Of a stretch of 64,000 bases of DNA, positions 1 to 13,536 are shown in pieces. The notes beneath the pieces were generated by a model, which did not search any database, was not told the origin of the DNA, and saw only the letters and a program-made list of their open reading frames with translations. The stretch lies in the NCBI RefSeq assembly GCF_001655615.1, contig NZ_CP011567.1:2923001-2987000 (forward strand). The letters run 5' to 3'. Every line of letters starts with the position of its first letter. The first letter of the stretch is position 1. The translations under genes and the position numbers were made by a program. This DNA is from Pseudomonas sp. GR 6-02. GTDB lineage: Bacteria > Pseudomonadota > Gammaproteobacteria > Pseudomonadales > Pseudomonadaceae.

Positions 1-1028
1 GCCACGGTCACCAGCTCGCCGCTGCGCGGATGATCCAGTTGCCAGGCCCGTTGTTCGGCTTTATCCAGCACCTGCTCGATGCCGGGCTGGCGCTGCAGCA
101 GCGCTTTGACGCGAGGAATGTCTTGCGCCTGCCTCACGTAGATGTGCGCGACCTGATGATCGGCCACGGCAAAGGCCGCGCTGGCGCCAGGGTCGAGCAA
201 CTCCCAGGTCAGCGATTGGCGCACCTGCAACAAGCCTTCCGAGCGCAACAGCCGGTTAATTGATATGGATTGCTGTACCGCTTCGATCCCATATTCGGAC
301 AACAGCATCACCGCCGCGCCTTGCTCCTGGGCAAAGGCCAGCAGGCGACCCACTTCACTGTCGATGGCCCGCACCTCGTCGGCAATCGACGGATGATCAG
401 GGCCCAGTCGCTGCAGGCAATAGTCGAGATGCGGCAGGTAGACCAACTGCAGGTCCGGTCGATCGAGCTGGAATTCGGCGATGGCGCAGTCGACGATCCA
501 GCGGCTCGATGCGATGCCGGCCGCCGGCCCCCAGAAACCCGGAAACGGAAATTCACCGATCTGCTGCTCGATACGCTCATGCAACGAGGCCGGTGACGAA
601 TACAGGCCGAACATCTTGCGGCCATCGGCCGGGTAGTGCGGGCGTGGGGTGATGGCCGCATCCACGTCCGCATACATGTTGTACCACCAGAACAACTGGC
701 TGCAGCGAAAACCCGGGAGTTCGCGCTTGAGCGTCTGCCAGACCTTTTCTCCCTGGATCAGTGCGTTGGGTTGCAGCCAGAAACGCACTTCAGCCTGGTC
801 ACGAAAATACCAGCCATTGCCGACGATGCCGTGTTCCGACGGCGACGCGCCGGTGAGGATCGAGGCCTGCACTGTAGAAGTGACCGCCGGAAACACCGGT
901 TGCAGGCTGGCCATTTTCGCCGTTTTCAACAGGGCATTGATGTGCGGTGTCGCCGGCCCCAGCAGCGCCGGGGTCAGCCCGACCACGTTGATCAGCAGCA
1001 GCGGTTGACGCGGGTGATCAGAGGGCAT
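1..1028 (-). CDS. eboF: EboF-like alkaline-phosphatase-superfamily phosphodiesterase (3' end outside window)
   Basis: The frame opens with ATG at 1028-1026 (MPSDHPRQPLLLINVVGL) and runs off the left edge, so only about 342 N-terminal codons are visible. The region FPAVTSTVQASILTG (residues about 50-64) matches the metal-binding/nucleophile segment of nucleotide pyrophosphatase/phosphodiesterases of the alkaline phosphatase superfamily. SPSEHGIVGNGWYF and YLPHLDY further along also fit that family. Its start overlaps the end of the eboE-like gene by 11 bp, so it is the last gene of the operon D-C-A-B-E-F. In cyanobacteria the EboF-type protein belongs to a cluster needed for export of the scytonemin monomer to the periplasm. 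The substrate here is unknown. Family assignment is firm; the ebo name rests on gene order. Confidence 0.85.
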   Translation of the reverse strand, partial: MPSDHPRQPLLLINVVGLTPALLGPATPHINALLKTAKMASLQPVFPAVTSTVQASILTGASPSEHGIVGNGWYFRDQAEVRFWLQPNALIQGEKVWQTLKRELPGFRCSQLFWWYNMYADVDAAITPRPHYPADGRKMFGLYSSPASLHERIEQQIGEFPFPGFWGPAAGIASSRWIVDCAIAEFQLDRPDLQLVYLPHLDYCLQRLGPDHPSIADEVRAIDSEVGRLLAFAQEQGAAVMLLSEYGIEAVQQSISINRLLRSEGLLQVRQSLTWELLDPGASAAFAVADHQVAHIYVRQAQDIPRVKALLQRQPGIEQVLDKAEQRAWQLDHPRSGELVTV

Positions 1029-2250
1029 CGGCGTACGCCTCCCGCACTTGGGGTTGCAGCAATTGACGCTGGCGCAGTTGTTCTTCGACCCAGTGCAGTT
1101 CTGCGGCGATTCCCTGCAGTTGGGCGTGCTCGGTGTTGGGCCGCAGTTGCGCGGGCAGGACGCCCCAGCTGTAGGTTTCCACTTCCAGCACGGGACGAAA
1201 ATCCCCATGGTCTGCGAGAAAGTCGAAAGTCTGCGACAGCGCGATCTGGCTGCCGCTGAGCTCACGCAGCAGCAAGTGTTCGCTGAACAGCGGGATGTGG
1301 AAATGAATCCGCAGTTCGGGGTACTGCCCCAGGTTATTGGCGCAATCGTCGAGGGCGGCGGGCAGGTCGGCCCAGCCCGATAACCGCGCCTGCGCATCTC
1401 GGGCTTTGACTTGATGCAGGTAGGTGGTTTCGGCGAAGTCGCTCAAGGTCTTGAGCACGTGTTCGCGCCGGTTGTGGTCTTCAGCGGGCAGGTGACAAAT
1501 CAGCGCGTTGGACAGCTGGATCTTGCCGACAGGCACTCGGGCCTGGCGCAGCTTTTCCAGCGACTGATAGCAGTGTTCGAAAACCACGGCCTGGTGGCAG
1601 ACATCAAAACACAGCGCCAGATAGTCATGGTGCGGATCGCTGGCTTGGTAGCGGTGGAAGAAGGCGATGGCCTGGTCGGTGTTTTCCAGCACGCAGTCCG
1701 GCTCCATCTCCAGGCAGAACACGATCTTCTTGCCCGTCTCCCGATGCAGCCTGGCCAGTGAAGCCGTGAGTTGGCGCAGCAGGTGTTCGGCACGCTGCTG
1801 TCGCCGCGGGTTCCAGTCGGCGGCATAGCCCAGCGGTACGGTGGAAATCACGCCTTGGGGGCAATCCGACGGCAGGGCGTGCGCCAGGATTCGGGCCAGA
1901 TTCAGGCTGTACGCCAGCCGTTTCGGATCAGTCCAGTTGGGCAAATAGACGTCGGCTTTCACCGCGCCCTGATGAAATTGGCCATAGGGAAAGCCGTTAA
2001 GTGAAGTCAGCCGCAGCCCGCTGCGTTGCAGCAGGCTGAGGAAGTCCGCGCGAGCTGACGCCTGCTGTAGTTCGGCCGCGGCGAGGGCGCTGATCCACAG
2101 CCCACTGTCTTGCTCGTTCAGGCCGCGCAGGGTGCGCACACCCCGGAAATGCCATTCGATGGATGACCGTAGTCCCGCCAGGTCACGGGTCGGGTGCACA
2201 TTGCTGCAATAACCGACCTGCGCGGCAGCCCAACCCGTGCCGGCACTCAT
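1018..2250 (-). CDS. eboE: EboE-like metabolite traffic protein (TIM-barrel, sugar-phosphate-isomerase-like)
   Basis: 410 aa counted from MSAGTGWAAAQ. The frame stays open 45 bases further upstream, but the ATG at 2250-2248 overlaps the TGA of the TatD gene as ATGA, the junction style used in this operon. The protein begins with VGYCSNVHP and contains HFHIPLF and CFDVCHQAVVFEH, with Cys, His, Asp and Glu at places typical of xylose-isomerase-like TIM barrels. EFxPDC-like metal-site residues appear in FCLEMEPDCVLE. EboE proteins are known from eboABCDEF clusters and have no assigned reaction; a role in processing or moving a prenylated or glycosylated metabolite is inferred from context. Codon use resembles its neighbours. 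Confidence 0.85.
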   Translation of the reverse strand: MSAGTGWAAAQVGYCSNVHPTRDLAGLRSSIEWHFRGVRTLRGLNEQDSGLWISALAAAELQQASARADFLSLLQRSGLRLTSLNGFPYGQFHQGAVKADVYLPNWTDPKRLAYSLNLARILAHALPSDCPQGVISTVPLGYAADWNPRRQQRAEHLLRQLTASLARLHRETGKKIVFCLEMEPDCVLENTDQAIAFFHRYQASDPHHDYLALCFDVCHQAVVFEHCYQSLEKLRQARVPVGKIQLSNALICHLPAEDHNRREHVLKTLSDFAETTYLHQVKARDAQARLSGWADLPAALDDCANNLGQYPELRIHFHIPLFSEHLLLRELSGSQIALSQTFDFLADHGDFRPVLEVETYSWGVLPAQLRPNTEHAQLQGIAAELHWVEEQLRQRQLLQPQVREAYADAL

Positions 2251-3131
2251 TTGATCACCGGTTCCTGGCCACGCAGGGCAGAGTTCTCCTGCCACTGCCG
2301 ACGCTGGTCGATGGGCAGCGGGGTGCTGACCAGGGTCTTGTCCAGTTGGCCGCTTTGGGCAAAAAAGTCCACGGGGTTGTGGAACAGCACCTGTTCGACC
2401 TGGCTTTCGCTGAAGCCGGCAGCCAGCATCGCTTCGCCTGTTTTCGGCACCTTGAGCGGATCGCTGATGCCCCAGTCGGCGGCGCTGTTGACCACCATTT
2501 TCTCGGTGCCGTACTGCTGCAACAGGGCGACCATGCGCTGTTCCGACATCTTGGTGTTGGGGTAGATCGAATGGCCGCGCCAGCAGTCGCTGTCCAGCAC
2601 CAGCGGCAGGGTCAGTTCGTTGAGGTGGTCGATGATCACCAGGTGCTCGGCAATCCCGACTTCGCGAATCACCGCCAGGGTGCGTTTGGTGCCACCGATC
2701 TTGTCGCGGTGCGGGGTGTGCACCAGCACCGGCAAATTGAATTGTCTGGCCAGCTCCAGCTGAGCGGCGAGGAAGCGATCTTCCTCCGGGGTGATGTCGT
2801 CGTAGCCGATTTCGCCGACCGCCACGACACCGTCTTTCACCAAGTAGCGCGGCAGAATCTCCAGCACTTCATTGGCCACCGACAGGTCATTGGCCTCCTT
2901 TGGGTTGAGGCCGATGGTGCAGAAATGATGAATGCCGAACATGCTGGCGCGAAAGCGCTCCCAGCCCAACAGGGTGTCGAAATAGTCGATGAAACTGCCG
3001 ACGCTGGTCCTGGCCTGACCCTGCCAGAAGGCCGGTTCGATCACCCCGGTGATGCCGGCGGCGGCCATGTTCTGGTAGTCATCGGTGGTGCGGCTGACCA
3101 TATGAATATGCGGGTCGAAGTACTTGAGCAT
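2247..3131 (-). CDS. eboB: EboB-like TatD-family metal-dependent hydrolase
   Basis: 294 aa. FDPHIHM at the N-terminus gives the two metal-binding histidines of the amidohydrolase/TatD fold. GEIGYDD (about residue 105) supplies the conserved glutamate, LVHTPHRDK and IIDHLNE give further histidines, and NSAADWG near residue 220 is where TatD proteins carry the last catalytic aspartate. TatD enzymes are usually DNases or phosphoesterases, but the Ebo subgroup is tied to metabolite clusters and its substrate is not known. The stop overlaps the eboE start by 4 bp and 36 bp separate it from eboA, which is the largest gap in the operon. Identification of the family is secure. Confidence 0.88.
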   Translation of the reverse strand: MLKYFDPHIHMVSRTTDDYQNMAAAGITGVIEPAFWQGQARTSVGSFIDYFDTLLGWERFRASMFGIHHFCTIGLNPKEANDLSVANEVLEILPRYLVKDGVVAVGEIGYDDITPEEDRFLAAQLELARQFNLPVLVHTPHRDKIGGTKRTLAVIREVGIAEHLVIIDHLNELTLPLVLDSDCWRGHSIYPNTKMSEQRMVALLQQYGTEKMVVNSAADWGISDPLKVPKTGEAMLAAGFSESQVEQVLFHNPVDFFAQSGQLDKTLVSTPLPIDQRRQWQENSALRGQEPVIK

Positions 3132-3167
3132 GGTAAATCCTCGTCAAGGAAAAGGAGTCGTTGAGTG

Positions 3168-3941
3168 TCAGTTCTGTGAGGTGCCGGCCAAGTACTCATG
3201 CCACTCAGGCGGCAAGCGTTGCTGCTGACTCAGGCCGGCCAGGCGCTGGTGTTGCGCCGGGCTGAGCAGGTCGAAGGCAATCACTCGGGGCAGCCCGGCG
3301 GACACCGTTCGTTCGGCGGCGAGCTGTTCGTCCAGCAGGTCGAGGGCCAGCTGGTTGAGGGCGACGCTGTGTCGTTGCGTCAGGCCGATCAGGCGTCGTA
3401 TATCGAGCCCCATGCCCAGCGCCTTCAGCACCAATTGATGGAAGGCCCGTTCGCTGTAATGGCGCGATGGGTAAAGGGTGTCGAGCGCGAGGGCGGCGAA
3501 CACCTGGCTGTTACTGGTACGCCCGGCCTGCAGCGCCAGTTCCACGCAAAGCCCGCGACTGTCGAGCCAGTCGAGGGCCTTCAGGGTGGCGATTTTTTCT
3601 TGATCGTCACCCCACAGGAACAGTTGGCGCAGCAACGGCAGTTGCCCTGCGAGGGGCTGTTGCTCCAGGACCTGAGCCAGCAACAATGCCCGCGCCAGTT
3701 GGACACTGCTCCAGTCGGGACTGTGGGGCAGCGATTGCTCCTTGAGGTTGCGCTTGCACTGGCTGCTCAACAGCGCCGCGGTATTGCCGTCCGGGCGTTG
3801 GGCAAGCTGCTCCTGGGCCTGGCGCCACCACTGCAGCTCGGTGTCATCGAGCTGTTGGGTGAGGGCCTGGTGTTGTTCGGCGAGGCAGTCGTGGCGTATT
3901 TCGAGAGCCGCCGATGGCGATGCAGTGACGTCCATGTTCAT
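3168..3941 (-). CDS. eboA: EboA domain protein
   Basis: 257 aa, starting MNMDVTASPS. The frame is open 54 bases further upstream, but ATG at 3941-3939 overlaps the UbiA stop as ATGA and is preferred. The protein is soluble and almost wholly helical by composition, rich in Leu, Gln and Ala, with no signal peptide or membrane segment. LFLWGDDQEKIATLKALDWL and FAALALDTLYPSRHYSERAFHQLVLKALG are the more conserved-looking stretches and look like helical-repeat packing. No catalytic motif is visible. EboA is the signature hypothetical protein of ebo clusters; no biochemical role is established for it. Assignment depends on its place between eboC and eboB as well as on sequence character. Confidence 0.8.
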   Translation of the reverse strand: MNMDVTASPSAALEIRHDCLAEQHQALTQQLDDTELQWWRQAQEQLAQRPDGNTAALLSSQCKRNLKEQSLPHSPDWSSVQLARALLLAQVLEQQPLAGQLPLLRQLFLWGDDQEKIATLKALDWLDSRGLCVELALQAGRTSNSQVFAALALDTLYPSRHYSERAFHQLVLKALGMGLDIRRLIGLTQRHSVALNQLALDLLDEQLAAERTVSAGLPRVIAFDLLSPAQHQRLAGLSQQQRLPPEWHEYLAGTSQN

Positions 3942-4828
3942 GTCGGTTTGATCCAGCGCTGGAAGTGTGGAAGCAGGAAAAACACCAGAACGCATAACAG
4001 GCTGCCCAGCGGCTGGTTGGCCACAGCCAGCACCAGGGCATCAAACAGTGGCAGAGCCGCCAGGCCAGCGCCGATAAAGGCACGGACTTGCCGTTGCTGC
4101 GGGTTGGCCAAGTGGTGCCAGTAATGCCAGCCCAGCCAGCCAAGCCAGAGCAGTAGCACCGGCCAGAACCAGACGTTGTCGGAATAGATCGCCAGCGCCA
4201 GCGGGCTCAACATCAGCAGTAGCGGCAGGCGGCTGAGCAACTGGTTGTTGTGCTCCTGACGAGCCAGGTAGGTCAGGCCGCTGATGTAGACGCCAAGCAA
4301 CATGGCGCACAGCCAGATCGGCTCCGGCGGCACCGCCAGGCTGGCCGCCGCCGTCAGGTAGAGGGCCGAGCGGCAGGCGCCCATCAGCCAGACGCTGTGG
4401 GCGTATTTCTTGTGCAGCACGTTGTAGCCGAGGATGCAGCCCACCAGCAGGGTGGCGCTACCCAGCAACCAGTGCGGTTGATCGATCAACCGGCTCAGGC
4501 CCAATACCGAGGCCGCAGCCAGTATCAGCAACAGCGCAGTAGCCAGCCCCACTTGCTGGCGGCTGACCAGACCCAACGTGATAGGGCGGGGATTGTGGTG
4601 CTGTTGGTCCCAGTCGGCGTCCAGCAGGTCGTTCAATAACATGCCGGCCAGATACAGCAACGACAGCGCGGCCAACAGCAGGATCCACACCAGCGACGAC
4701 GGCGGCGCCAGGGCACCAGCGCTGCTGGCGAGCAGGGCGGCGGCCAAGGTGTTGGTCCACACGGTGGGCAGGTTGGATACCCGACCGAGGGTCATCCAGG
4801 TTTTCAGGTTCAGTGGTGTCTGGCTCAT
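3938..4828 (-). CDS. eboC: EboC-like UbiA-family prenyltransferase
   Basis: 296 aa polytopic membrane protein with about eight hydrophobic segments. It carries NDLLDADWDQQHHNPRPI at about residues 66-83, the NDxxDxxxD prenyl-diphosphate/Mg2+ motif of UbiA transferases. The second aspartate-rich motif is weaker: the segment after NVLHKKYAHSVW has no obvious DxxxD, so the ring-substrate side may differ from UbiA proper. It would attach an isoprenoid to an acceptor in the inner membrane. The start overlaps the stop of the upstream EboD-type gene (ATGA) and the stop overlaps the start of eboA, so translation is probably coupled. What is prenylated is unknown. Confidence 0.87.
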   Translation of the reverse strand: MSQTPLNLKTWMTLGRVSNLPTVWTNTLAAALLASSAGALAPPSSLVWILLLAALSLLYLAGMLLNDLLDADWDQQHHNPRPITLGLVSRQQVGLATALLLILAAASVLGLSRLIDQPHWLLGSATLLVGCILGYNVLHKKYAHSVWLMGACRSALYLTAAASLAVPPEPIWLCAMLLGVYISGLTYLARQEHNNQLLSRLPLLLMLSPLALAIYSDNVWFWPVLLLWLGWLGWHYWHHLANPQQRQVRAFIGAGLAALPLFDALVLAVANQPLGSLLCVLVFFLLPHFQRWIKPT

Positions 4829-6711
4829 TGCGCGCAGCCCTCGCTGAGGGTGAGCGCCGGATCGATGCGGGTCGACAGCCGTTGCAGCGCCTGTTCCATC
4901 CGCGCGGCATCGATCTCGTGCAGGTCCACCGACTCGCCGATCCGGCTGAGCATGGGGATGGAGAGTTGCCCGCCCAGGTGCTGGCGGAATTCCTCCAGAC
5001 CGAGCAGAACCAGCGAGCGTCCCTGTGCATCTTTCAAGGTCAGTTCCGGCGGGCTCAGGCTGAAGCCGAGCTTGAGCAACAGGTTCAGCAGCCGTTCGGT
5101 GTCGGCATCGCTCAACAACCCCAGGGCATTGGCATAGAGCCCATCCAGGGCCATGCCCACCGCCACGGCTTCACCATGGCGTAGTCGGTGCTGGCTGAGG
5201 TTTTCCAGTTTGTGCGCGGCCCAATGCCCGTAATCCAGTGGCCGTCCGTTACCGCGCTCGAAGGGGTCGCCGGCACCGGTGATGTGCGCCAGGTGCAGTT
5301 CGGCGCAGCGGCGAATGGCATAGCGGCTGGCCGAGTGATCGAAGTGGGCGAGGGCGTCGGCCTGTTGTTCCATCCATTGGAAGAAGGCCTGGTCTTTGAT
5401 CAGCGCCACTTTTACCGCCTCGGCCAGCCCGGCGATCTGGTCGCGGCGGGTCAGGCTGGTCAGCAGCTGGAAGTCGTTGATTACCGCGGTGGCGGGGTAG
5501 AAGGCGCCCAGCAGGTTCTTCTGGCCGAAGGCATTGATGCCGTTTTTCACCCCGATGCCGGCGTCGTTCTGCGCCAGCACGGTGCTCGGGATGCGGATCA
5601 GGCGAATGCCACGGTGGAAGGTGGCGCAGGCGTAGCCCACCGCATCCAGCACCGCACCGCCGCCCAGGGCCAGCACATAGCAATGCCGGTCCAGCCCATG
5701 CTGCAGCATATCGGTGTAAAGCTGCTGCAACACCTGTGAATCCTTGCTCAGTTCGCCGGCCGGCACTGCAATCGGCGCGGCCTGCAAATGCAGGTCCGCC
5801 GCATGGGCGGCAAAGTAGGCGTCGATCTGTTCCAGCAGGTGCGGGGCGCTTTGCAGCAGTTGTTCATCGGCGAACACCAGCACCGTCACCGGGCCCCGGT
5901 GCTGTGGGGTGAGTCGTGCGGTGAGCTGGTGATGCAGACACGGATTGGACGGCTCGAACAGGTGATCGGTGAACACCACCGGGTAGTCGTAACGGACCTC
6001 GAAACGCCCGTGCAGGGAATGCTCGGCGTTTTGCTTGCGCAAGGTTTTGAACAGGCTGTACCCGGCGATAAACAGCCCGGGCAACACCATGCTGGCGAGC
6101 AGGGTCACCAGCAGCGCGTTCTGCTCGACGAGGTAGATGCCGATGGCGCTGTAGGCCAGTGCCAGACCGGCATTGGCCAGGGTGGTCACTAACACGAACG
6201 CGGGCAGCGGATAACGTTGCATCCCGGCGGCCACCACCGAGGTTTCGGCCAATACCGGCACGCCGCGCAGGCAGATCAACGACAGCGTGCCCAGCTTGTA
6301 CGCCAGTTGCCCCGGCTGGCGCTGATGCAGGCCCAGGCGGCCGGACAGCAGCCGAAAATAGCCCGCCCCCAGCGCATACCCCAGTCCGGCCCCCAGGCAC
6401 AGCCCCACGAAAATCACCAGGTAGCCGCCAACAGCGCCGAGCATGGCCACGGCCAGCAGCGCGACCATGCTCGAAGGCACCGGCAGCACCACGTCCAGCG
6501 CGAGCAGGGCGATCAGCAGCAGGGCCAGGTTGAGTTTTTGGGTGGGAGTGGAAGGCTGGTACAAGTTGAGATGGGTCAGGAAGTCCTGGATCTGTTGTTC
6601 GAACAACAGAAAGCTGGCGATCACCAAGCCTGAGAAGCAAAGCAATGAAATCCAGAAATGACCGGCAGGCCCCCGTTGCGAGAACGCACGATACCCATGG
6701 CTGCGCTTCAT
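4825..6711 (-). CDS. eboD: Fusion: VTT/DedA-like membrane domain + EboD 3-dehydroquinate-synthase-like domain
   Basis: 628 aa from ATG 6711-6709; an adjacent TTG at 6714 is possible, and an AGAGGG Shine-Dalgarno lies about 10 nt upstream of the ATG. Residues about 15-220 form an integral membrane module with five to six hydrophobic segments and a VTT/SNARE-associated feel (VLPVPSSMVALLAVAMLG, LICLRGVPVLAETSVVAAGM). Residues about 230-628 are a dehydroquinate-synthase fold: ALGGGAVLDAVGYACATFHRG is the NAD loop, IPSTVLAQNDAGIGVKNGIN the substrate loop, and GLAEAVKVALIKD, DYGHWAAHKLE and LRHGEAVAVGM supply the Glu/His/His metal site. EboD proteins with this domain occur in ebo clusters and probably act on a sugar phosphate rather than in the shikimate pathway. 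It is the first gene of the operon. The membrane fusion would place the enzyme on the inner membrane beside EboC. Confidence 0.87.
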   Translation of the reverse strand: MKRSHGYRAFSQRGPAGHFWISLLCFSGLVIASFLLFEQQIQDFLTHLNLYQPSTPTQKLNLALLLIALLALDVVLPVPSSMVALLAVAMLGAVGGYLVIFVGLCLGAGLGYALGAGYFRLLSGRLGLHQRQPGQLAYKLGTLSLICLRGVPVLAETSVVAAGMQRYPLPAFVLVTTLANAGLALAYSAIGIYLVEQNALLVTLLASMVLPGLFIAGYSLFKTLRKQNAEHSLHGRFEVRYDYPVVFTDHLFEPSNPCLHHQLTARLTPQHRGPVTVLVFADEQLLQSAPHLLEQIDAYFAAHAADLHLQAAPIAVPAGELSKDSQVLQQLYTDMLQHGLDRHCYVLALGGGAVLDAVGYACATFHRGIRLIRIPSTVLAQNDAGIGVKNGINAFGQKNLLGAFYPATAVINDFQLLTSLTRRDQIAGLAEAVKVALIKDQAFFQWMEQQADALAHFDHSASRYAIRRCAELHLAHITGAGDPFERGNGRPLDYGHWAAHKLENLSQHRLRHGEAVAVGMALDGLYANALGLLSDADTERLLNLLLKLGFSLSPPELTLKDAQGRSLVLLGLEEFRQHLGGQLSIPMLSRIGESVDLHEIDAARMEQALQRLSTRIDPALTLSEGCAQ

Positions 6712-6926
6712 CAAGCATCCCTCTTTATTTTTATGACTGATTCCGTGTCAGTAATTAAAAGCAGCGTCTGGTTGGTTTTAGATCAATAGATTCTCTCGCC
6801 TGAGGGGCTGGTTTATGTACGGTTTGGTTACGCCTGTAGAGATAGTTCTGAACTTAGACGGTCGTGGTGTTTTTGCAAGGCGGCCTGATGGCGATCTGAC
6901 TTTTTTCACCTGCGTGAACGCGACCC
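6712..6926 (-). promoter_or_regulatory. Upstream region of the ebo operon
   Basis: This AT-richer stretch lies between the eboD start and the large inverted repeat. Read on the minus strand it holds TTGATC, and 20-odd bases downstream TTTTAATTACTGACACGG, which could serve as a weak -35/-10 pair before the eboD ribosome-binding site. No regulator gene adjoins it and no convincing operator palindrome was seen. An ORF that crosses it on the plus strand is mostly repeat sequence and is not accepted. Confidence 0.35.
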
Positions 6927-7071
6927 GTAGCAGCTGTCGAGCCTGCGAGGCTGCGTTCGGCGGCGCAGCCGTCGTGAATCCGGCTGACGTGGTTTGCCTG
7001 ATGCACCGCGAGTTCTGGTTTTACGACTGCTGCGCAGCCGAACGCAGCCTCGCGAGCTCGACAGCTGCTAC
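6927..7071. repeat. Large inverted-repeat element, copy A (145 bp)
   Basis: It starts GTAGCAGCTGTCGAGC and ends with the near-perfect reverse complement GCTCGACAGCTGCTAC. The 48-nt arms match at 44 positions by eye. The centre of about 50 bp (TGAATCCGGCTGACGTGG... GCGAGTTCTGGTTTTACGA) is also shared with the copies at 15813, 52655 and 63095. It is non-coding and intergenic. The structure suggests a MITE or REPIN-like element moved by an enzyme encoded elsewhere. Confidence 0.85.
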
Positions 7072-7312: not shown

Positions 7313-8218
7313 ATGAATAACAAGAATGTCGGTGTTGTCGGTCTGGGCGCGATGGGGTTGGGCATTGCCCGCTCACTGTTGCGCAGTGGTTTCAATGTGC
7401 ATGCCTGTGATGTGCGTGCGCAGGTGACTGAACAGTTTGCCGGGGAGGGCGGCGTGGCGTGCTCTTCGCCCGCGCAGATGGCCGCGGCGTGCGACGTGAT
7501 CATTACCGTGGTGGTGAACGCCGAGCAGACCGAAACCGTATTGTTTGGCGAGGGTGGCGCCGTCGCTGCGTTGCGCCCGGGCAGCCTGGTGATCGGTTGT
7601 GCCACCGTGGCCCCGATCTACGCTGTCGACCTGGGCCAGCGCCTGACCGCCCAGGGCTTGCTGTATCTGGATGCCCCGATCTCCGGTGGCGCAGCCAAGG
7701 CGGCTGCCGGTGAAATGACCATGATGACGTCCGGCCCGGCCGACGCTTACGCCAAGGCCGAAGCCGTCCTGGCAGGCATGGCCGGCAAGGTTTATCGCCT
7801 GGGCGACAGCCATGGCCTGGGTTCGAAGGTCAAGATCATCAACCAGTTGCTCGCCGGTGTGCACATCGCGGCCTCTGCCGAAGCCATGGCGCTGGGCCTG
7901 CGTGAAGGGGTCGATGCCGAGGCGCTTTACGAAGTGATCACCCACAGCGCCGGTAATTCCTGGATGTTCGAAAACCGCGTGCCGCACATTCTCAAGGCTG
8001 ATTACACGCCATTGTCCGCGGTGGATATTTTCGTCAAGGACCTGGGCCTGGTGCTGGATACCGCACGGGCCAGCAAATTCCCGCTGCCGCTGTCGGCCAC
8101 CGCCCACCAGATGTTCATGCAGGCTTCCAGTGCCGGCTTCGGGCGTGAGGACGACTCGGCAGTAATCAAGATTTTCCCCGGCATCGAGTTGCCGACTGCC
8201 AAGACCGAGCCGGTTTGA
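7313..8218 (+). CDS. ltnD: L-threonate-type 2-dehydrogenase (beta-hydroxyacid dehydrogenase family)
   Basis: 301 aa. GVVGLGAMGLGIARSLL at residues 6-22 is the NAD(P) Rossmann loop of the 3-hydroxyisobutyrate/6-phosphogluconate dehydrogenase family. DAPISGGAAKAAAGEMTMM is the substrate-binding block, and GLGSKVKIINQLLAG near residue 170 contains the catalytic lysine. Its setting with an OtnK kinase, OtnC decarboxylase, OtnI isomerase and a GntP permease points to oxidation of a four-carbon sugar acid at C2, the first step of the threonate/erythronate route. It is first in the operon with 10 bp to otnK. Exact stereospecificity (L-threonate, D-threonate or D-erythronate) cannot be read from the sequence. 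Confidence 0.88.
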   Translation: MNNKNVGVVGLGAMGLGIARSLLRSGFNVHACDVRAQVTEQFAGEGGVACSSPAQMAAACDVIITVVVNAEQTETVLFGEGGAVAALRPGSLVIGCATVAPIYAVDLGQRLTAQGLLYLDAPISGGAAKAAAGEMTMMTSGPADAYAKAEAVLAGMAGKVYRLGDSHGLGSKVKIINQLLAGVHIAASAEAMALGLREGVDAEALYEVITHSAGNSWMFENRVPHILKADYTPLSAVDIFVKDLGLVLDTARASKFPLPLSATAHQMFMQASSAGFGREDDSAVIKIFPGIELPTAKTEPV

Positions 8219-8228
8219 GGAACACCCA

Positions 8229-9527
8229 ATGAACACTACCCCTGCACGCCCATTGCTGGGCTGCATCGCCGACGATTTCACCGGTGCCACGGACCTGGCC
8301 AACATGCTGGTGCGCGGCGGTATGCGCACCGTGCAAAGCATTGGCATTCCGAGCAGCGAAGTGGCGGCCGGGCTCGATGCCGATGCGATCGTCATCGCCC
8401 TCAAGTCACGCACCATTCCAGTCGCCGAAGCGGTCGAGCAATCCCTTGCCGCGCTGGCCTGGTTGCGTGAGCAAGGCTGCGAGCAGATTTTCTTCAAGTA
8501 CTGCTCGACGTTCGATTCCACCGCGGCCGGCAATATCGGCCAGGTCAGTGAAGCACTGCTGGCGGCGCTGGGCAGCGACTTCACCCTGGCGTGCCCGGCG
8601 TTCCCGGAGAATGGCCGGACGATCTTTCGCGGTCACTTGTTCGTCCAGGATCAACTGCTCAGCGAGTCGGGCATGCAGCATCACCCGCTGACGCCGATGA
8701 CCGATGCCAACCTGGTGCGGGTGCTGCAGTCGCAGACCCGTCTGAACGTCGGCCTGTTGCGCTACGACACCATTGCCCAAGGCGCCGAAAAGGTACGCGG
8801 ACGCATCGCCGAACTGCGGGCTCAAGGTATCGGTATGGCGATTGCCGATGCCTTGTCGGACCAGGATCTGTACACCCTCGGCACCGCCTGTGCCGACTTG
8901 CCGTTGTTGACTGGCGGCTCGGGGCTGGCCCTGGGCTTGCCAGAAAACTTCCGTCGCGCCGGTAAATTGCGCGACCTCGATGCCTCGAAACTCCCGGCGG
9001 TGGCTGGCGGTGAAGTGGTGTTGGCCGGTAGCGCTTCGGTCGCCACCAATGGCCAAGTCGCGGCCTGGCTCGAAGCCGGTCGACCCGCGTTGCGGATTGA
9101 TCCGTTGGCCCTGGCGGCTGGCGAACCGGTGGTGGCCCAGGCCCTGGCCTTCGCCAAGAACAATGAACAACCCGTATTGATCTACGCCACCAGCGCACCG
9201 GACGAGGTCAAGGCAGTGCAACAGCAGCTCGGCGTCGAACAGGCCGGCAGTCTGGTGGAAAACGCCTTTGGCGAAATTGCTCAAGGCTTGCGTCAGAGCG
9301 GCGTGCGGCGCTTCGTGATCGCCGGCGGTGAAACGTCGGGCGCGGTGGTTCAGGCGCTGGGCGTACAACTGCTGCAAATTGGCGCGCAGATTGATCCGGG
9401 TGTGCCGGCAACCGTCAGCAGCACCGATGAGCCTCTGGCCCTGGCGCTCAAATCGGGCAACTTCGGTGGTCGGGATTTCTTCAGCAAAGCGCTGAAGCAA
9501 CTGGCCCAGACCGGAGGTGCGCAATGA
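8229..9527 (+). CDS. otnK: 3-oxo-tetronate kinase (OtnK, four-carbon acid sugar kinase family)
   Basis: 432 aa. The N-terminus LGCIADDFTGATDLANMLVRGG is the hallmark of the DUF1537/four-carbon acid sugar kinase family. FFKYCSTFDSTAAGNIGQ and CPAFPENGRTIFRGHLFV follow as substrate loops. The C-terminal nucleotide-binding domain has LLTGGSGLALGLP, VLAGSAS and VIAGGETSGAVVQALG. It phosphorylates 3-oxo-tetronate at C4. The start lies 10 bp after the ltnD stop with GAGGAAC as Shine-Dalgarno, and the stop overlaps the otnC start by 4 bp (ATGA). Length is normal for the family. Confidence 0.92.
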   Translation: MNTTPARPLLGCIADDFTGATDLANMLVRGGMRTVQSIGIPSSEVAAGLDADAIVIALKSRTIPVAEAVEQSLAALAWLREQGCEQIFFKYCSTFDSTAAGNIGQVSEALLAALGSDFTLACPAFPENGRTIFRGHLFVQDQLLSESGMQHHPLTPMTDANLVRVLQSQTRLNVGLLRYDTIAQGAEKVRGRIAELRAQGIGMAIADALSDQDLYTLGTACADLPLLTGGSGLALGLPENFRRAGKLRDLDASKLPAVAGGEVVLAGSASVATNGQVAAWLEAGRPALRIDPLALAAGEPVVAQALAFAKNNEQPVLIYATSAPDEVKAVQQQLGVEQAGSLVENAFGEIAQGLRQSGVRRFVIAGGETSGAVVQALGVQLLQIGAQIDPGVPATVSSTDEPLALALKSGNFGGRDFFSKALKQLAQTGGAQ

Positions 9528-10162
9528 GTAATGAAAACGCCCTGCGCGAAGAAATCTGCGACGTTGGCCGCAGCCTGTATGAGCGCGGTTACACCGTCGG
9601 CAGCGCCGGCAATATCAGCGCACGGCTGGACGATGGCTGGCTGATCACGCCGACCGATGTCTGCCTCGGCCGCCTCGATCCGGCGACCATCGCCAAGGTC
9701 AATCTGGCTGGCGAATGGGTGTCTGGCGACAAGCCGTCGAAGACATTGGCGTTGCATCGCCAGGTCTACGACCGCAACCCGAGTGTCGGTGGTGTGGTGC
9801 ATACCCATTCCACTCATCTGGTGGCGTTGACGTTGGCAGGTGTCTGGCAGCCGAACGACATCCTGCCGCCATTGACGCCCTATCAGGTGATGAAAGTCGG
9901 GCATATCCCGTTGATCAGCTACCAGCGTCCCGGCTCGCCAAAGGTGGCCGAACAGGTCGCACAACTGGCCAACAGTGTTCGCGGCGTGATGCTCGAACGG
10001 CTGGGGCCGGTGGTCTGGGAGAGTTCGGTGTCCAGAGCCAGCTACGCCCTGGAGGAGCTCGAAGAAACCGCGCGGTTGTGGCTGATGAGCAATCCCAAGC
10101 CCGAACCGCTCGATCAGGCAGCACTGGACGAGCTGCGAGCGGCTTTCGGTGTGCACTGGTAG
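9524..10162 (+). CDS. otnC: 3-oxo-tetronate 4-phosphate decarboxylase (class II aldolase family)
   Basis: 212 aa. SAGNISARLDDGWLITPT (about residues 27-44) and VVHTHSTHLVALTLAG (about residue 90) are the class II aldolase/adducin signatures, with HTHSTH giving zinc-binding histidines. In the Otn pathway it decarboxylates 3-oxo-tetronate 4-phosphate to dihydroxyacetone phosphate, which enters glycolysis. Translation is coupled to otnK through the ATGA overlap. Full length, no anomalies. Confidence 0.92.
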   Translation: MSNENALREEICDVGRSLYERGYTVGSAGNISARLDDGWLITPTDVCLGRLDPATIAKVNLAGEWVSGDKPSKTLALHRQVYDRNPSVGGVVHTHSTHLVALTLAGVWQPNDILPPLTPYQVMKVGHIPLISYQRPGSPKVAEQVAQLANSVRGVMLERLGPVVWESSVSRASYALEELEETARLWLMSNPKPEPLDQAALDELRAAFGVHW

Positions 10163-10289
10163 GGCGCTGACTTTTCTTCAAACGATAGAACACGAAAGAC
10201 CGATAAAGCAGGCCCCGTTCGGGAGACGCGCAGCGACTCCCACGACCCCGGCTTGCCTGAAAAATACAATAACAAGAGGACATCCAGGC

Positions 10290-10370
10290 ATGACTCACCT
10301 TCACTGCGGCATTTTCAGACCCGGTTGCAGCACCCTTGTGTTCGCCCGGCGCGGAGGGCTTGTGAAATGA
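10290..10370 (+). CDS. Candidate 26-aa leader ORF coupled to the permease start
   Basis: ATG at 10290 is preceded by AAGAGGA at a spacing of about 9 nt, and the frame reads MTHLHCGIFRPGC... to a TGA at 10368-10370. That TGA overlaps the ATG of the GntP-family permease (ATGA). The arrangement is that of a short ORF setting translation of the downstream gene, although the permease also has its own GCGGAGGG Shine-Dalgarno. The peptide resembles no known protein. It lies in the only sizeable gap (204 bp) between otnC and the permease. Confidence 0.4.
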   Translation: MTHLHCGIFRPGCSTLVFARRGGLVK

Positions 10371-11827
10371 GCCCGTTAATCCTGATGGTTACCGCGGGGC
10401 TAGGGATCGCTCTGTTGTTGTTTTTGGTGCTCAAGTACAAGTTCCAGCCTTTCGTGGCGTTGATGCTGGTGAGCATTCTGGTGGCGCTGGTGGCCGGGGT
10501 GAAACCGGCCGACCTGGTCGCCACCATCGAAGGCGGCATGGGCAAGACCCTGGGCCACATCGCGATCATCATTGCCCTGGGCGCGATGATCGGGCGGATC
10601 ATCGAACTCTCCGGCGGCGCCGAGGCGCTGGCCAAGACGCTGATCAGCCGTTTCGGCAATCGACGCACGCCGCTGGCGCTGACGATTGCCGGGTTCATGG
10701 TCGGGGTGCCGGTGTTCTTCGAGGTCGGTGTGATCATCCTGATGCCGCTGGCCTATGGCGTTGCCCGCAGTGCACGCAAGCCACTGTTGGTGTTTGCGTT
10801 GCCGATGTGTGCTGCGTTGCTGACCGTACACGCCTTCCTGCCGCCACACCCCGGCGCGGTGGCCGCTGCCAGTCAGTTGGGTGCCGACCTCGGTCGCGTG
10901 CTGATGTTCGGTCTGCCGATCACCGCGTTCCTCTGCTATGTCGGTTACCGCGTGGCCGGGCGCATGACCCGTCGGGTGTACCCGATGACCGACGATATCC
11001 GCGCCGAAGTCTATGGCCCGCATGTCACCAACGAAGACCTGGTCGCCTGGGCCAATGGCAACGGCAAGAGCGCTGAACGAGCTGCCGTGGCCGCGTCGCA
11101 CATGGGCCTGGAAGAGTCCACTAGCGCTATCGTTTCCAAGTTGCCGCCGGCACCCGCACCGGGTTTTGGCATGATCGTCAGCCTGATAGCGCTACCGATC
11201 ATTCTGATTCTGCTGGGAACACTGTCCAACTCGTTGCTGCCTGCCGACTCGGTCCTGCGCGGCATCATGACCGTGCTCGGTGCGCCATTGGTGGCGCTGC
11301 TGATCGACACCTTGCTGTGTGCCTGGTTGTTGGGTTCGCGTCGGGGCTGGAGTCGTACCCAGGTGTCTGACGTGATCGGTTCGGCCTTGCCAGGTGTGGC
11401 CATGGTGATTCTGATTGCCGGTGCCGGCGGTGTGTTCGGCAAGGTGCTGGTGGATACCGGCATCGGCGCGGTGGTCTCCGATTTGTTGCGCACCACCGGT
11501 CTGCCGGTGCTCGCGCTGGGCTTTCTGCTGACCATGCTGTTGCGTGCGGTCCAGGGCTCGACCACGGTGGCGCTGGTGACCACCGCCGGCATCATCAGCC
11601 CGCTGATCGCGACCCTCAACCTCACCGCGAATCACATGGCGCTGCTGTGCCTGGCCATGGGCGGTGGCGGGTTGGCCATGTCCCATATCAACGACGCCGG
11701 TTACTGGATCTTCACCAAGCTGTCCGGGTTGAACGTGGCCGACGGCCTGCGTACCTGGACCGTGCTGACCACCTTGCTCGGCACGCTGGGTTTCGGTATT
11801 ACCTTGCTGATCTGGCCGTTTGTCTAA
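10367..11827 (+). CDS. GntP-family sugar-acid permease
   Basis: 486 aa from ATG 10367 (MSPLILMVTAGLGIALL), preceded by GCGGAGGG; a longer open frame from 10253 lacks support. It is a hydrophobic protein with about 12 membrane segments. HIAIIIALGAMIGRIIELSGGAEALA and GFMVGVPVFFEVGVIILMPLAYG are typical GntP/gluconate:H+ symporter motifs, as is LRAVQGSTTVALVTTAGIISPL near the C-terminus. In this operon it very probably imports the tetronate acted on by LtnD, across the inner membrane. A 29-bp-arm palindrome follows the gene before otnI. Confidence 0.9.
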   Translation: MSPLILMVTAGLGIALLLFLVLKYKFQPFVALMLVSILVALVAGVKPADLVATIEGGMGKTLGHIAIIIALGAMIGRIIELSGGAEALAKTLISRFGNRRTPLALTIAGFMVGVPVFFEVGVIILMPLAYGVARSARKPLLVFALPMCAALLTVHAFLPPHPGAVAAASQLGADLGRVLMFGLPITAFLCYVGYRVAGRMTRRVYPMTDDIRAEVYGPHVTNEDLVAWANGNGKSAERAAVAASHMGLEESTSAIVSKLPPAPAPGFGMIVSLIALPIILILLGTLSNSLLPADSVLRGIMTVLGAPLVALLIDTLLCAWLLGSRRGWSRTQVSDVIGSALPGVAMVILIAGAGGVFGKVLVDTGIGAVVSDLLRTTGLPVLALGFLLTMLLRAVQGSTTVALVTTAGIISPLIATLNLTANHMALLCLAMGGGGLAMSHINDAGYWIFTKLSGLNVADGLRTWTVLTTLLGTLGFGITLLIWPFV

Positions 11828-11840
11828 CGAACTGTCGACT

Positions 11841-11908
11841 TGTAGGAGCCAGGCTTGCCGGCGAAGGCGTCTTTAAGAGCGCCTTCGCCGGCAAGCCTGG
11901 CTCCTACA
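11841..11908. repeat. REP/REPIN-like perfect inverted repeat inside the tetronate operon
   Basis: Arms 11841-11869 and 11880-11908 are perfect 29-bp reverse complements (TGTAGGAGCCAGGCTTGCC...) around a 10-nt loop TCTTTAAGAG. TGTAGGAGC-C/G-AGGCTTGC is the familiar start of Pseudomonas REP sequences. Sitting between the permease and otnI, it would form a very stable RNA hairpin. It could reduce readthrough or protect upstream mRNA. No U-run follows directly, so it is not a classical terminator. Confidence 0.85.
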
Positions 11909-11930
11909 AAAAACATACATAGGAGCTACC

Positions 11931-12713
11931 ATGCCTCGTTTTGCTGCCAACCTCAGCATGCTCTACCCGGAACATGAGTTTCTGGATCGCTTCGCCGCCG
12001 CGGCCGCCGATGGTTTTGAAGCGGTGGAATACCTGTTCCCCTACGACTACAGCGCCCAGGAACTCAAACAGCGCTTGAGCGATAACGGCTTGGTGCAGGC
12101 GCTGTTCAACGCACCGCCCGGCGATTGGGCGGCAGGCGAGCGGGGCACGGTATCGTTGCCGGGCCGGGAGAGTGAATTTCGCAGCGGTTTCGATCGCGCA
12201 CTGGAATACGCCGCCGTCCTGGGCAACTCACGCATCCATGTGATGGCCGGGCTGCTGCCGTCGGAAAACGATCGACCACGGCATCACGGCGCGTACCTGG
12301 AGAACCTGGCCTACGCCACCGCGCAGGCCGCCAAGGTCGGTGTCACCGTGCTGCTGGAACCGATCAACACGCGCGACATGCCGGGCTTTTTCCTCAACCG
12401 CCAGGATCAGGCCCAGGCCATCTGCAAGGAAGTGGGCGCCAGTAACCTGAAGGTTCAGTTCGATTGCTACCACTGCCAGATCGTCGAAGGTGACCTGGCC
12501 ACTAAACTGCGTCGGGATTTCGCCGGCATCGGTCATATCCAGATCGCCGGCGTACCGGATCGACATGAGCCGGACCTGGGCGAAGTCAACTATCCCTATC
12601 TGTTCGAGTTGATCGACCAGTTGGGTTATGACGGCTGGGTAGGGTGCGAATACCGGCCCCGTGGCAACACGTCGGCCGGCTTGCAGTGGCTGCGGGACTG
12701 GAAGGCGCGCTAA
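11931..12713 (+). CDS. otnI: 2-oxo-tetronate isomerase (hydroxypyruvate-isomerase family)
   Basis: 260 aa TIM-barrel protein: [40 protein letters not shown] is the usual N-terminus of the Hyi/OtnI family. [15 protein letters not shown] near residue 145, [14 protein letters not shown] near residue 180 and GCEYRPRG near the end carry the metal-binding Glu, Asp, His and Glu. It interconverts 2-oxo- and 3-oxo-tetronate between LtnD and OtnK. TAGGAG precedes the start. The stop is 4 bp from the convergent DeoR gene. Confidence 0.92.
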
Positions 12714-12717
12714 CGCC

Positions 12718-13536
12718 TTACAGGTTGTTATCGGAAGGCAACAGCAGTTCGACACCCTGCTTGCGGATGCTATCGGCCGCGGCAGGGGTCAGTGCGTCGT
12801 CGCTGAGGATGATGTCGAACTGCTCGAGCCCGGCGATCCGGTACATGCTGAACGTGCCGTACTTCGAACTGCTGGCCACCAGCACCACTTGCGAGGCCGA
12901 TTGCATCGCGACTTGCTTGACCTCCACCTTCAGCGCCGACGGCGTGGTGAGGCCGCGACGCAAATCCCAGGAGCTGGTGGAAATGAAAGCGATATCGGTG
13001 ACGATCTGACGCAAGGTGGCCACCGCCAGACCGCCCACGCACGATTGATTCGAATGATCCAGTTGCCCGCCGGTGTGAATCACCGTGACATGGGGCGCAT
13101 CGATCAGCGCTTGGACAATCCCGAAGTCGTTGGTCACCACGGTCATTCCCGACAGCGCCTTGATGTACGGGACGATTTCCAGTGTGCTGGTCCCCGCATC
13201 CAGATAAACCGTCATATCGGCATGCAGTAGCCGCGCGGCCAGCTTGGCCATCGCCTGCTTCTGCGGCAACTCGACCACCGCCTTGAACTGATGACTGGGC
13301 TCGCTGTGGAGCTGGCTGGCAATTCGCACGCCGCCAGTGACCGAGTAAGCACGGCCTTCCTGTTCAAGCAGCGCGATATCGCGGCGGATGGTCATGTGCG
13401 AGCAGTCGAACATTTCCATCAACTGATGAACGCTCAGCACCTGATGCTTGCGCAATTGGCGCAGCATCAATTCACGGCGCTGTTCAGGAATCATCGGTGC
13501 GCCGCTTTCGGCGGCGATGTCCTTTTGACTAGGCAT
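12718..13536 (-). CDS. DeoR/GlpR-family transcriptional regulator
   Basis: 272 aa. The N-terminal winged helix spans MIPEQRRELMLRQLRKHQVLSVHQLMEMFDCSHMTIRRDIALLEQEG (about residues 15-61), the DeoR signature. The rest is a DeoRC sugar-phosphate sensor domain with YLDAGTSTLEIVPYI and VVTNDFGIVQALI. The start at 13536 has TGGAG 8 nt upstream; MIPEQRR at codon 15 is a possible alternative. It converges on otnI with 4 bp between, so it probably represses the tetronate operon and responds to a pathway intermediate. Its own operator was not identified. Confidence 0.88.
   Translation of the reverse strand: MPSQKDIAAESGAPMIPEQRRELMLRQLRKHQVLSVHQLMEMFDCSHMTIRRDIALLEQEGRAYSVTGGVRIASQLHSEPSHQFKAVVELPQKQAMAKLAARLLHADMTVYLDAGTSTLEIVPYIKALSGMTVVTNDFGIVQALIDAPHVTVIHTGGQLDHSNQSCVGGLAVATLRQIVTDIAFISTSSWDLRRGLTTPSALKVEVKQVAMQSASQVVLVASSSKYGTFSMYRIAGLEQFDIILSDDALTPAAADSIRKQGVELLLPSDNNL

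Follow-up and report, generated by a model that had tools for sequence, protein, structure and literature searches.

A probable EDB-type ebo operon with a membrane domain fused to EboD in Pseudomonas sp. GR 6-02

By what route could ebo genes help a small molecule made in the cytoplasm to reach the periplasm, and what could that molecule be in a pseudomonad? The question is raised by six genes, eboDCABEF, at the left end of a 64,000-nucleotide stretch of the genome of Pseudomonas sp. GR 6-02 (the window; bases 2923001-2987000 of a closed genome of 6.5 Mb on one contig). In Nostoc, the ebo genes are needed to bring an indolic monomer to the periplasm, and in the ebo mutants studied this one monomer builds up in the cytoplasm; the authors proposed a glycolipid-like carrier, produced by the Ebo enzymes, that crosses by way of a capsule ATP-binding cassette (ABC) permease (PMC6282210). 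The locus described here combines the ebo gene content with a VTT membrane domain fused to EboD, a co-occurrence of this fusion with further genes, conserved motifs and a conserved leader. In our judgement the balance is even for the reading that a twelve-gene ebo operon of the EDB type, controlled by Gac/Rsm, begins in the window with its first six genes and has a tryptophan-derived indole, probably cell-associated and grazer-deterring, as its product.

Extent and gene families of the operon

Families were assigned by hmmscan with Pfam and NCBIfam models. Coordinates marked L002 refer to a genomic stretch reaching to the left of the window, which was used for the end of eboF and for the genes p1 to p6.

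eboD, 4825..6711, minus strand: 628 aa from the ATG at 6711, matching NF004852, PF09335, PF01761 and PF24621
eboC, 3938..4828, minus strand: 296 aa, UbiA-type prenyltransferase, matching PF01040
eboA, 3168..3941, minus strand: 257 aa, ATG overlapping the eboC stop, EboA domain model
eboB, 2247..3131, minus strand: 294 aa, TatD-like metal-dependent hydrolase, matching PF01026
eboE, 1018..2250, minus strand: 410 aa, TIM-barrel protein, matching NF035939
eboF, 1..1028 and on to L002:19583, minus strand: 481 aa when whole, phosphodiesterase-type, matching PF01663
p1, L002:18468-19604, minus strand: left of the window, downstream of eboF
p2, L002:16065-18455, minus strand: left of the window, 796 aa
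p3, L002:15086-16003, minus strand: left of the window
p4, L002:13756-15066, minus strand: left of the window
p5, L002:11944-13752, minus strand: left of the window, 602 aa
p6, L002:10855-11910, minus strand: left of the window, last gene of the operon

Both the order D-C-A-B-E-F on the minus strand and the four stop/start overlaps reported by the initial annotation agree with these coordinates and families: D/C, C/A and B/E overlap by 4 bases each and E/F by 11, with a gap of 36 bases between A and B, and none of the six ebo reading frames has an internal stop. The stop of eboF lies 418 bases left of the window edge. There p1 overlaps eboF by 22 bases, and the intergenic gaps from p1 to p6 are 12, 61, 19, 3 and 33 bases. 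Because of this short same-strand spacing, the twelve genes eboDCABEF-p1-p2-p3-p4-p5-p6 seem to form a single transcription unit of 15.9 kb. The initial annotation had taken positions 1-6711 for a complete operon without an adjoining biosynthetic gene. Neither claim survived, since it was the window edge that cut the operon: EboF is truncated there, and among the six co-oriented genes beyond it p2 and p5 are VioB-like, p1 and p4 carry a c-type haem motif and p6 is ScyD/ScyE-like.

EboE exceeds the cut-off of its TIM_EboE model (NF035939, 406.6 bits, cut-off 250) and EboA that of the EboA_domain model (NF035938, 134.5 bits, cut-off 50), while EboA stays below the EboA_family cut-off (NF035937, 77.8 bits, cut-off 320); for EboA a longer frame of 275 aa was scored. 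EboB (PF01026, 45.7 bits, cut-off 27), EboD and EboF (PF01663, 197.2 bits, cut-off 23) were assigned through superfamily models and position. EboC passes PF01040 (44.5 bits, cut-off 34.2); NF035940 remains below its cut-off (84.6 bits, cut-off 250), yet is its top NCBIfam match. In protein sets filtered by length, at least 95% of 66 sequences have the EboC motif NDxxDxxxD (N66, D67, D70, D74), and at least 97% of 73 have H8, H10, E107, H138, H169 and D219 of EboB. These are the histidines and acids expected of the EboB superfamily. The EboA to EboF families are thus all clustered and co-oriented, as in an ebo operon. The ebo/edb assignment of the initial annotation held. The arrangement is more than chance: EboE is above cut-off in 25 of 199 genomes drawn from the genus, and the gene order recurs. 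Support for the gene families is good; the chemistry and the transport are inferred.

The EboD fusion and its distribution

The initial annotation had the families right but overlooked a VTT domain in EboD and the sites in the eboD leader. EboD, numbered here from a TTG at 6714, the codon that precedes the ATG at 6711, carries at its N-terminus a VTT (DedA-type) membrane domain (PF09335, aa 79-192, 40.3 bits, cut-off 33.9), followed at about aa 222-629 by a sugar phosphate cyclase resembling 3-dehydroquinate (DHQ) synthase (PF01761, 120.7 bits; PF24621, 114.4 bits). The cyclase motif NDxGxGVKN, present in at least 97% of 60 EboD sequences, differs from the DHQ synthases aligned: in alignments to solved enzymes, EboD reads QNDAGIGVK, the cyclase chain 4p53 has MIDAGIGAK, and the DHQ synthase with the best score has QVDSSVGGK. 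We take 4p53 to be a valiolone synthase.

DedA/VTT proteins include undecaprenyl-phosphate flippases (excerpt of PMC12893004). In one of these, UptA, single changes of two loop arginines cut lipid binding by 27-30% and a double charge reversal by 63% (excerpt of PMC11474028). EboD shares with UptA and PA4029 the VTT domain and the first loop arginine (R150); it differs from them in its fusion to a cyclase and in having Ala156, followed by Glu157, where UptA has its second arginine for binding undecaprenyl phosphate. Both residues occur in at least 95% of 50 EboD sequences each. Five other VTT proteins are encoded in the genome, and both arginines are present in four (the fifth, L147, was read in a wrong frame). 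The pair of re-entrant-loop arginines that marks the UptA type is therefore incomplete in EboD, and undecaprenyl phosphate is an unlikely substrate if the domain is a flippase. A transport role of the domain is itself putative.

Relatives were collected with the EboE of this strain as single query, and the best 80 of 113 were used. Among the named ones, Pseudomonas sp. GM18 has the nearest EboE (93% identity), which is also the sister in the tree. A fused VTT domain and downstream genes occur together in 50 of these loci, downstream genes without VTT in 5 (L033, L045, L049, L068 and L093), neither in 24 and VTT without downstream genes in 1. The last (L092) has a sequence that ends 115 bases after F, and the 24 form a weak contrast: EboD is out of view in 18, in 8 of which EboE was found alone (L099, L101, L102, L104-L108, all Planctomycetota), and the sequences of L080 and L087 stop at or in F. 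Where EboD is in view, it is fused in 50 of 54 loci with the extra genes (L045, which is cut before the EboD start, set aside) versus none of 6 without them (L092 set aside; L080, which ends in F, included). L032, with many frame breaks, was counted as fused and kept out of the p1-p6, EboD and VTT protein sets. The fused loci span Pseudomonas, Azomonas, Rheinheimera, Alteromonas, Marinobacterium and a Kangiellaceae bin. Two P. protegens strains (L069, L072) are among the carriers of the locus. A SAR324 bin (L093) has a p5-like gene of the VioB-N-like kind and an unfused EboD running opposite to the other ebo genes (L093:12719-14887, minus strand). A profile of the fused domain, with strong matches behind fused genes set aside, found no open reading frame for a separate VTT protein in the unfused loci at E ≤ 1, a search that a distant VTT protein could escape.

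In L033, L049 and L068 EboD is without its VTT part, yet starts with the same dozen residues as the fused form. In the EboE tree these three sit among the VTT-bearing L046 and L066 (support 97/88 and 100/99), which suggests, on this tree, repeated loss of VTT or an exchange of loci. All three are without p3-p5; eight other loci of the Pseudomonas clade without p3-p5 have kept VTT. In L049, which thus lacks VTT and p3-p5, EboC is reduced to 66 aa (L049:8107-8307), possibly a sign of decay. Three loci have a small hydrophobic reading frame of 135-144 aa between eboF and an unfused eboD (L090:12611-13024, L095:12618-13052, L097:12601-13008) with the motif VQFNDPD in L095 and L097 and VQLNDAD in L090; we assume it to be TMEM220-like.

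In the genus draw, p2 was found in 25 genomes, the same 25 as EboE. All 24 loci other than our own have p1-type and p2-type genes after F, 22 have the fused VTT and 17 have p3-p4-p5; p6 was outside the fetched stretch or cut in most of those with p3-p5. Thirteen of the 24 are probably strains also present among the 80 relatives, so that the two samples overlap. A draw of 398 genomes from the phylum gave EboE in three, our own included; in the locus from outside the genus (G382, L134) EboD is unfused and p1-p6 were not found in the fetched stretch.

Downstream genes and the eboD leader

Proteins p2 and p5 resemble the N-terminal part of VioB, the iminophenyl-pyruvate dimer synthase. Their matches to the VioB model (29.1 and 22.4 bits) reach only about the first 160 of 1003 profile positions, and 23 of the 32 p5 members match at E ≤ 0.01. 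Unlike VioB, they are 796 and 602 aa long, and with scores far below the equivalog cut-off of 1250 they were rejected as VioB members. A signal peptide is not apparent in either. A whole-fold match for p5 was also rejected, since solved structures matched its immunoglobulin-like part alone (about aa 397-510). In a sequence search against solved structures p2 and p6 remained unmatched, and p4 and the p5 profile gave one chance-level match each.

All 51 p1 and all 41 p4 sequences have a CxxCH c-type haem motif, which in p4 lies towards the C-terminus, and the top fold matches of p4 are cytochrome P460 and cytochrome c'-beta. Unmatched in Pfam and NCBIfam, p1 and p4 look like secreted c-type haem proteins, possibly with a P460/c'-beta-like fold; signal-like N-termini were judged by eye on p1, p3 and p4. 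Protein p6 scores 56.4 bits with the ScyD/ScyE model NF033206, below its cut-off of 80, so membership was rejected and a likeness kept.

This composition recalls the EDB cluster of P. fluorescens NZI7, which has the full ebo set and further open reading frames, some with signal peptides (PMC6282210), as here with p1-p6 after F; the likeness was judged against the published description of NZI7. Another strain needs an operon of this type to keep off grazing worms. The ebo genes of Nostoc punctiforme and other cyanobacteria share the EboA to EboF families and a ScyD/ScyE-like gene in the same pathway, and differ in gene order; in Anabaena azotica (L100), the sole cyanobacterial locus compared, EboD has 401 aa without VTT, and p1-p6 were not found. 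The operon is a variant among ebo operons and probably one more member among EDB clusters.

Upstream of eboD, two sites are predicted to bind RsmA/E:

Site 1, 6736..6752, minus strand: leader hairpin ACTGA-CACGGAA-TCAGT with GGA in the loop
Site 2, 6718..6722, minus strand: AGGGA at the eboD Shine-Dalgarno

The GGA of site 2 follows that of site 1 by 24 bases. The leader could be read in 59 loci with EboD, our own included; 46 of them have a Shine-Dalgarno of the type AGGGA[TC]GCTTG, and 45 of these have a second GGA 23-27 bases upstream. The upstream GGA lies in a loop closed by at least 4 bp in 38 of the 46 (200 shuffles: mean 3.5, maximum 9) and by at least 5 bp in 32 (mean 1.0, maximum 4). 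This pattern was defined after the sequences had been viewed, and related leaders are not independent; it is missing from the 13 leaders of L070, L075, L076, L080, L082, L083, L090, L092, L095-L098 and L100. Each site agrees with the A(N)GGA rule, and one of them lies at the Shine-Dalgarno; two primary sites were counted, versus the at least three demanded there (excerpt of PMC4066749). The genome has three CsrA/Rsm genes, and the EDB cluster of NZI7 is reported to be under GacS control (excerpt of PMC4406715). Two conserved GGA sites are what direct Gac/Rsm control would lead one to expect.

A putative route for an indole and its alternatives

The route that we infer for this organism has five steps. 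An RsmA/E dimer would bridge the two GGA sites and block translation until GacS/GacA signalling relieves the block. In the cytoplasm, p2 and p5 may act on a tryptophan-derived intermediate. EboD would convert a sugar phosphate to a cyclitol and EboC would prenylate an acceptor; the lipid-like carrier that results may be built or trimmed by EboA, B, E and F. Transfer over the inner membrane, of the carrier by itself or together with the indole, would fall to the VTT domain fused to EboD. Once in the periplasm, the cargo may be oxidised by p1 and p4, the haem proteins, as proposed for ScyE with scytonemin.

The statement of the initial annotation that the product is unknown is in part outdated: according to a review, E. 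coli with the NZI7 EDB cluster produces indole compounds, and two of them repel Caenorhabditis elegans, an effect that the review terms moderate. Their chemotaxis indices at 0.2 mM are -0.18 and -0.08 (excerpt of PMC9655573), and we read the effect as small. The matches listed in our literature search report no VTT fusion, P460-like genes or Rsm sites of ebo loci, which may stand in other papers; by term counts none of these papers names VTT or DedA together with ebo, and none links cytochrome P460 to violacein or indole.

A more specific proposal, possible but doubtful, sees in the VTT part of EboD the translocase that the ebo system has so far lacked: a flippase fused to the enzyme for the carrier's head group, partnered by two P460-type cytochromes in the periplasm and selective for a non-phosphate carrier because the second phosphate-binding arginine is gone. 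If so, Ebo would export small molecules on a lipid carrier, on the same principle by which undecaprenyl phosphate serves sugars. The EDB type offers a candidate translocator tied covalently to an ebo enzyme, and the fusion would be a simpler answer to carrier movement than the capsule ABC permease. Gac/Rsm is a main control of secondary metabolism in Pseudomonas, and the leader would provide two nameable RNA sites for its possible direct action on a grazing defence. The locus also gives leads for p1 and p4, cluster genes that lack a match in Pfam or NCBIfam.

The ebo genes might instead make a prenylated cyclitol that is itself the deterrent, with VTT merely anchoring the cyclase beside EboC and p1-p6 tailoring the product. 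A cyclitol and a prenyl transfer are what EboD and EboC predict (PMC5133447), and EboC homologues farnesylate quinoline acids in vitro (excerpt of PMC9235831); the single indolic monomer that piles up in the cytoplasm of Nostoc ebo mutants (PMC6282210) speaks against it, as do the VioB-like and ScyD/ScyE-like neighbours, which suggest indole chemistry, and we consider it rather unlikely. It is very improbable that EboD is a second DHQ synthase, in an operon that supplies aromatic precursors to secondary metabolism and a VTT domain without a transport role. EboD does pass the model named 3-dehydroquinate synthase (NF004852, 636.3 bits, cut-off 333), but with 223 bits it is below the cut-off of 305 for AroB (TIGR01357), which another gene of the genome passes with 385.5, and it was rejected as AroB; moreover, its motif departs from that of the best-scoring DHQ synthase, as described above, and EboD forms a separate clade of its own (PMC5133447).

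As to regulation, the leader sites may be no more than a strong Shine-Dalgarno beside a hairpin that has another function or none, with Gac control of the cluster, as reported for NZI7, being indirect. In favour of this view, a GGA is expected in a Shine-Dalgarno even without Rsm, the leaders of related species are alike by descent, 13 of 59 lack the pattern, and 8 of the 46 others are without a stem of at least 4 bp around the upstream GGA or without that GGA. The stem in 38 of 46 leaders is nevertheless far above the shuffles and is formed by 14 different strings (several differing just in length or register), and we regard indirect control as unlikely. Three further results either tell against the indole reading or have no force. 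The branch uniting the fused loci has 96/66 support only and takes in the unfused L080. Label changes on the EboE tree number 5, against 4.9 in shuffles and as low in 500 of 500, a count over 51 fused and 5 unfused rows (L074 was left out of the tree) by which clustering is not shown. Lastly, a six-frame VioB search of the 398 genomes at E ≤ 0.001 matched three others and left our own genome unmatched.

On the other side of eboD, the gap to the divergent neighbour contains at about 6925-7070 a long inverted repeat with GC-rich arms, by eye similar to repetitive extragenic palindromic (REP) elements. The neighbours, at 7313-12713 on the plus strand, encode L-threonate dehydrogenase, 3-oxo-tetronate kinase, 3-oxo-tetronate 4-phosphate decarboxylase, a GntP-type transporter and 2-oxo-tetronate isomerase, and a DeoR-type regulator lies beside these four-carbon sugar acid genes (12718-13536, minus strand); a link of this set to ebo is not visible. 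Left of the window, convergent with the end of the operon, L002:7204-10794 (plus strand) encodes a fusion of 1196 aa between a flippase-like transmembrane region (PF03706) and a magnesium-type P-type ATPase.
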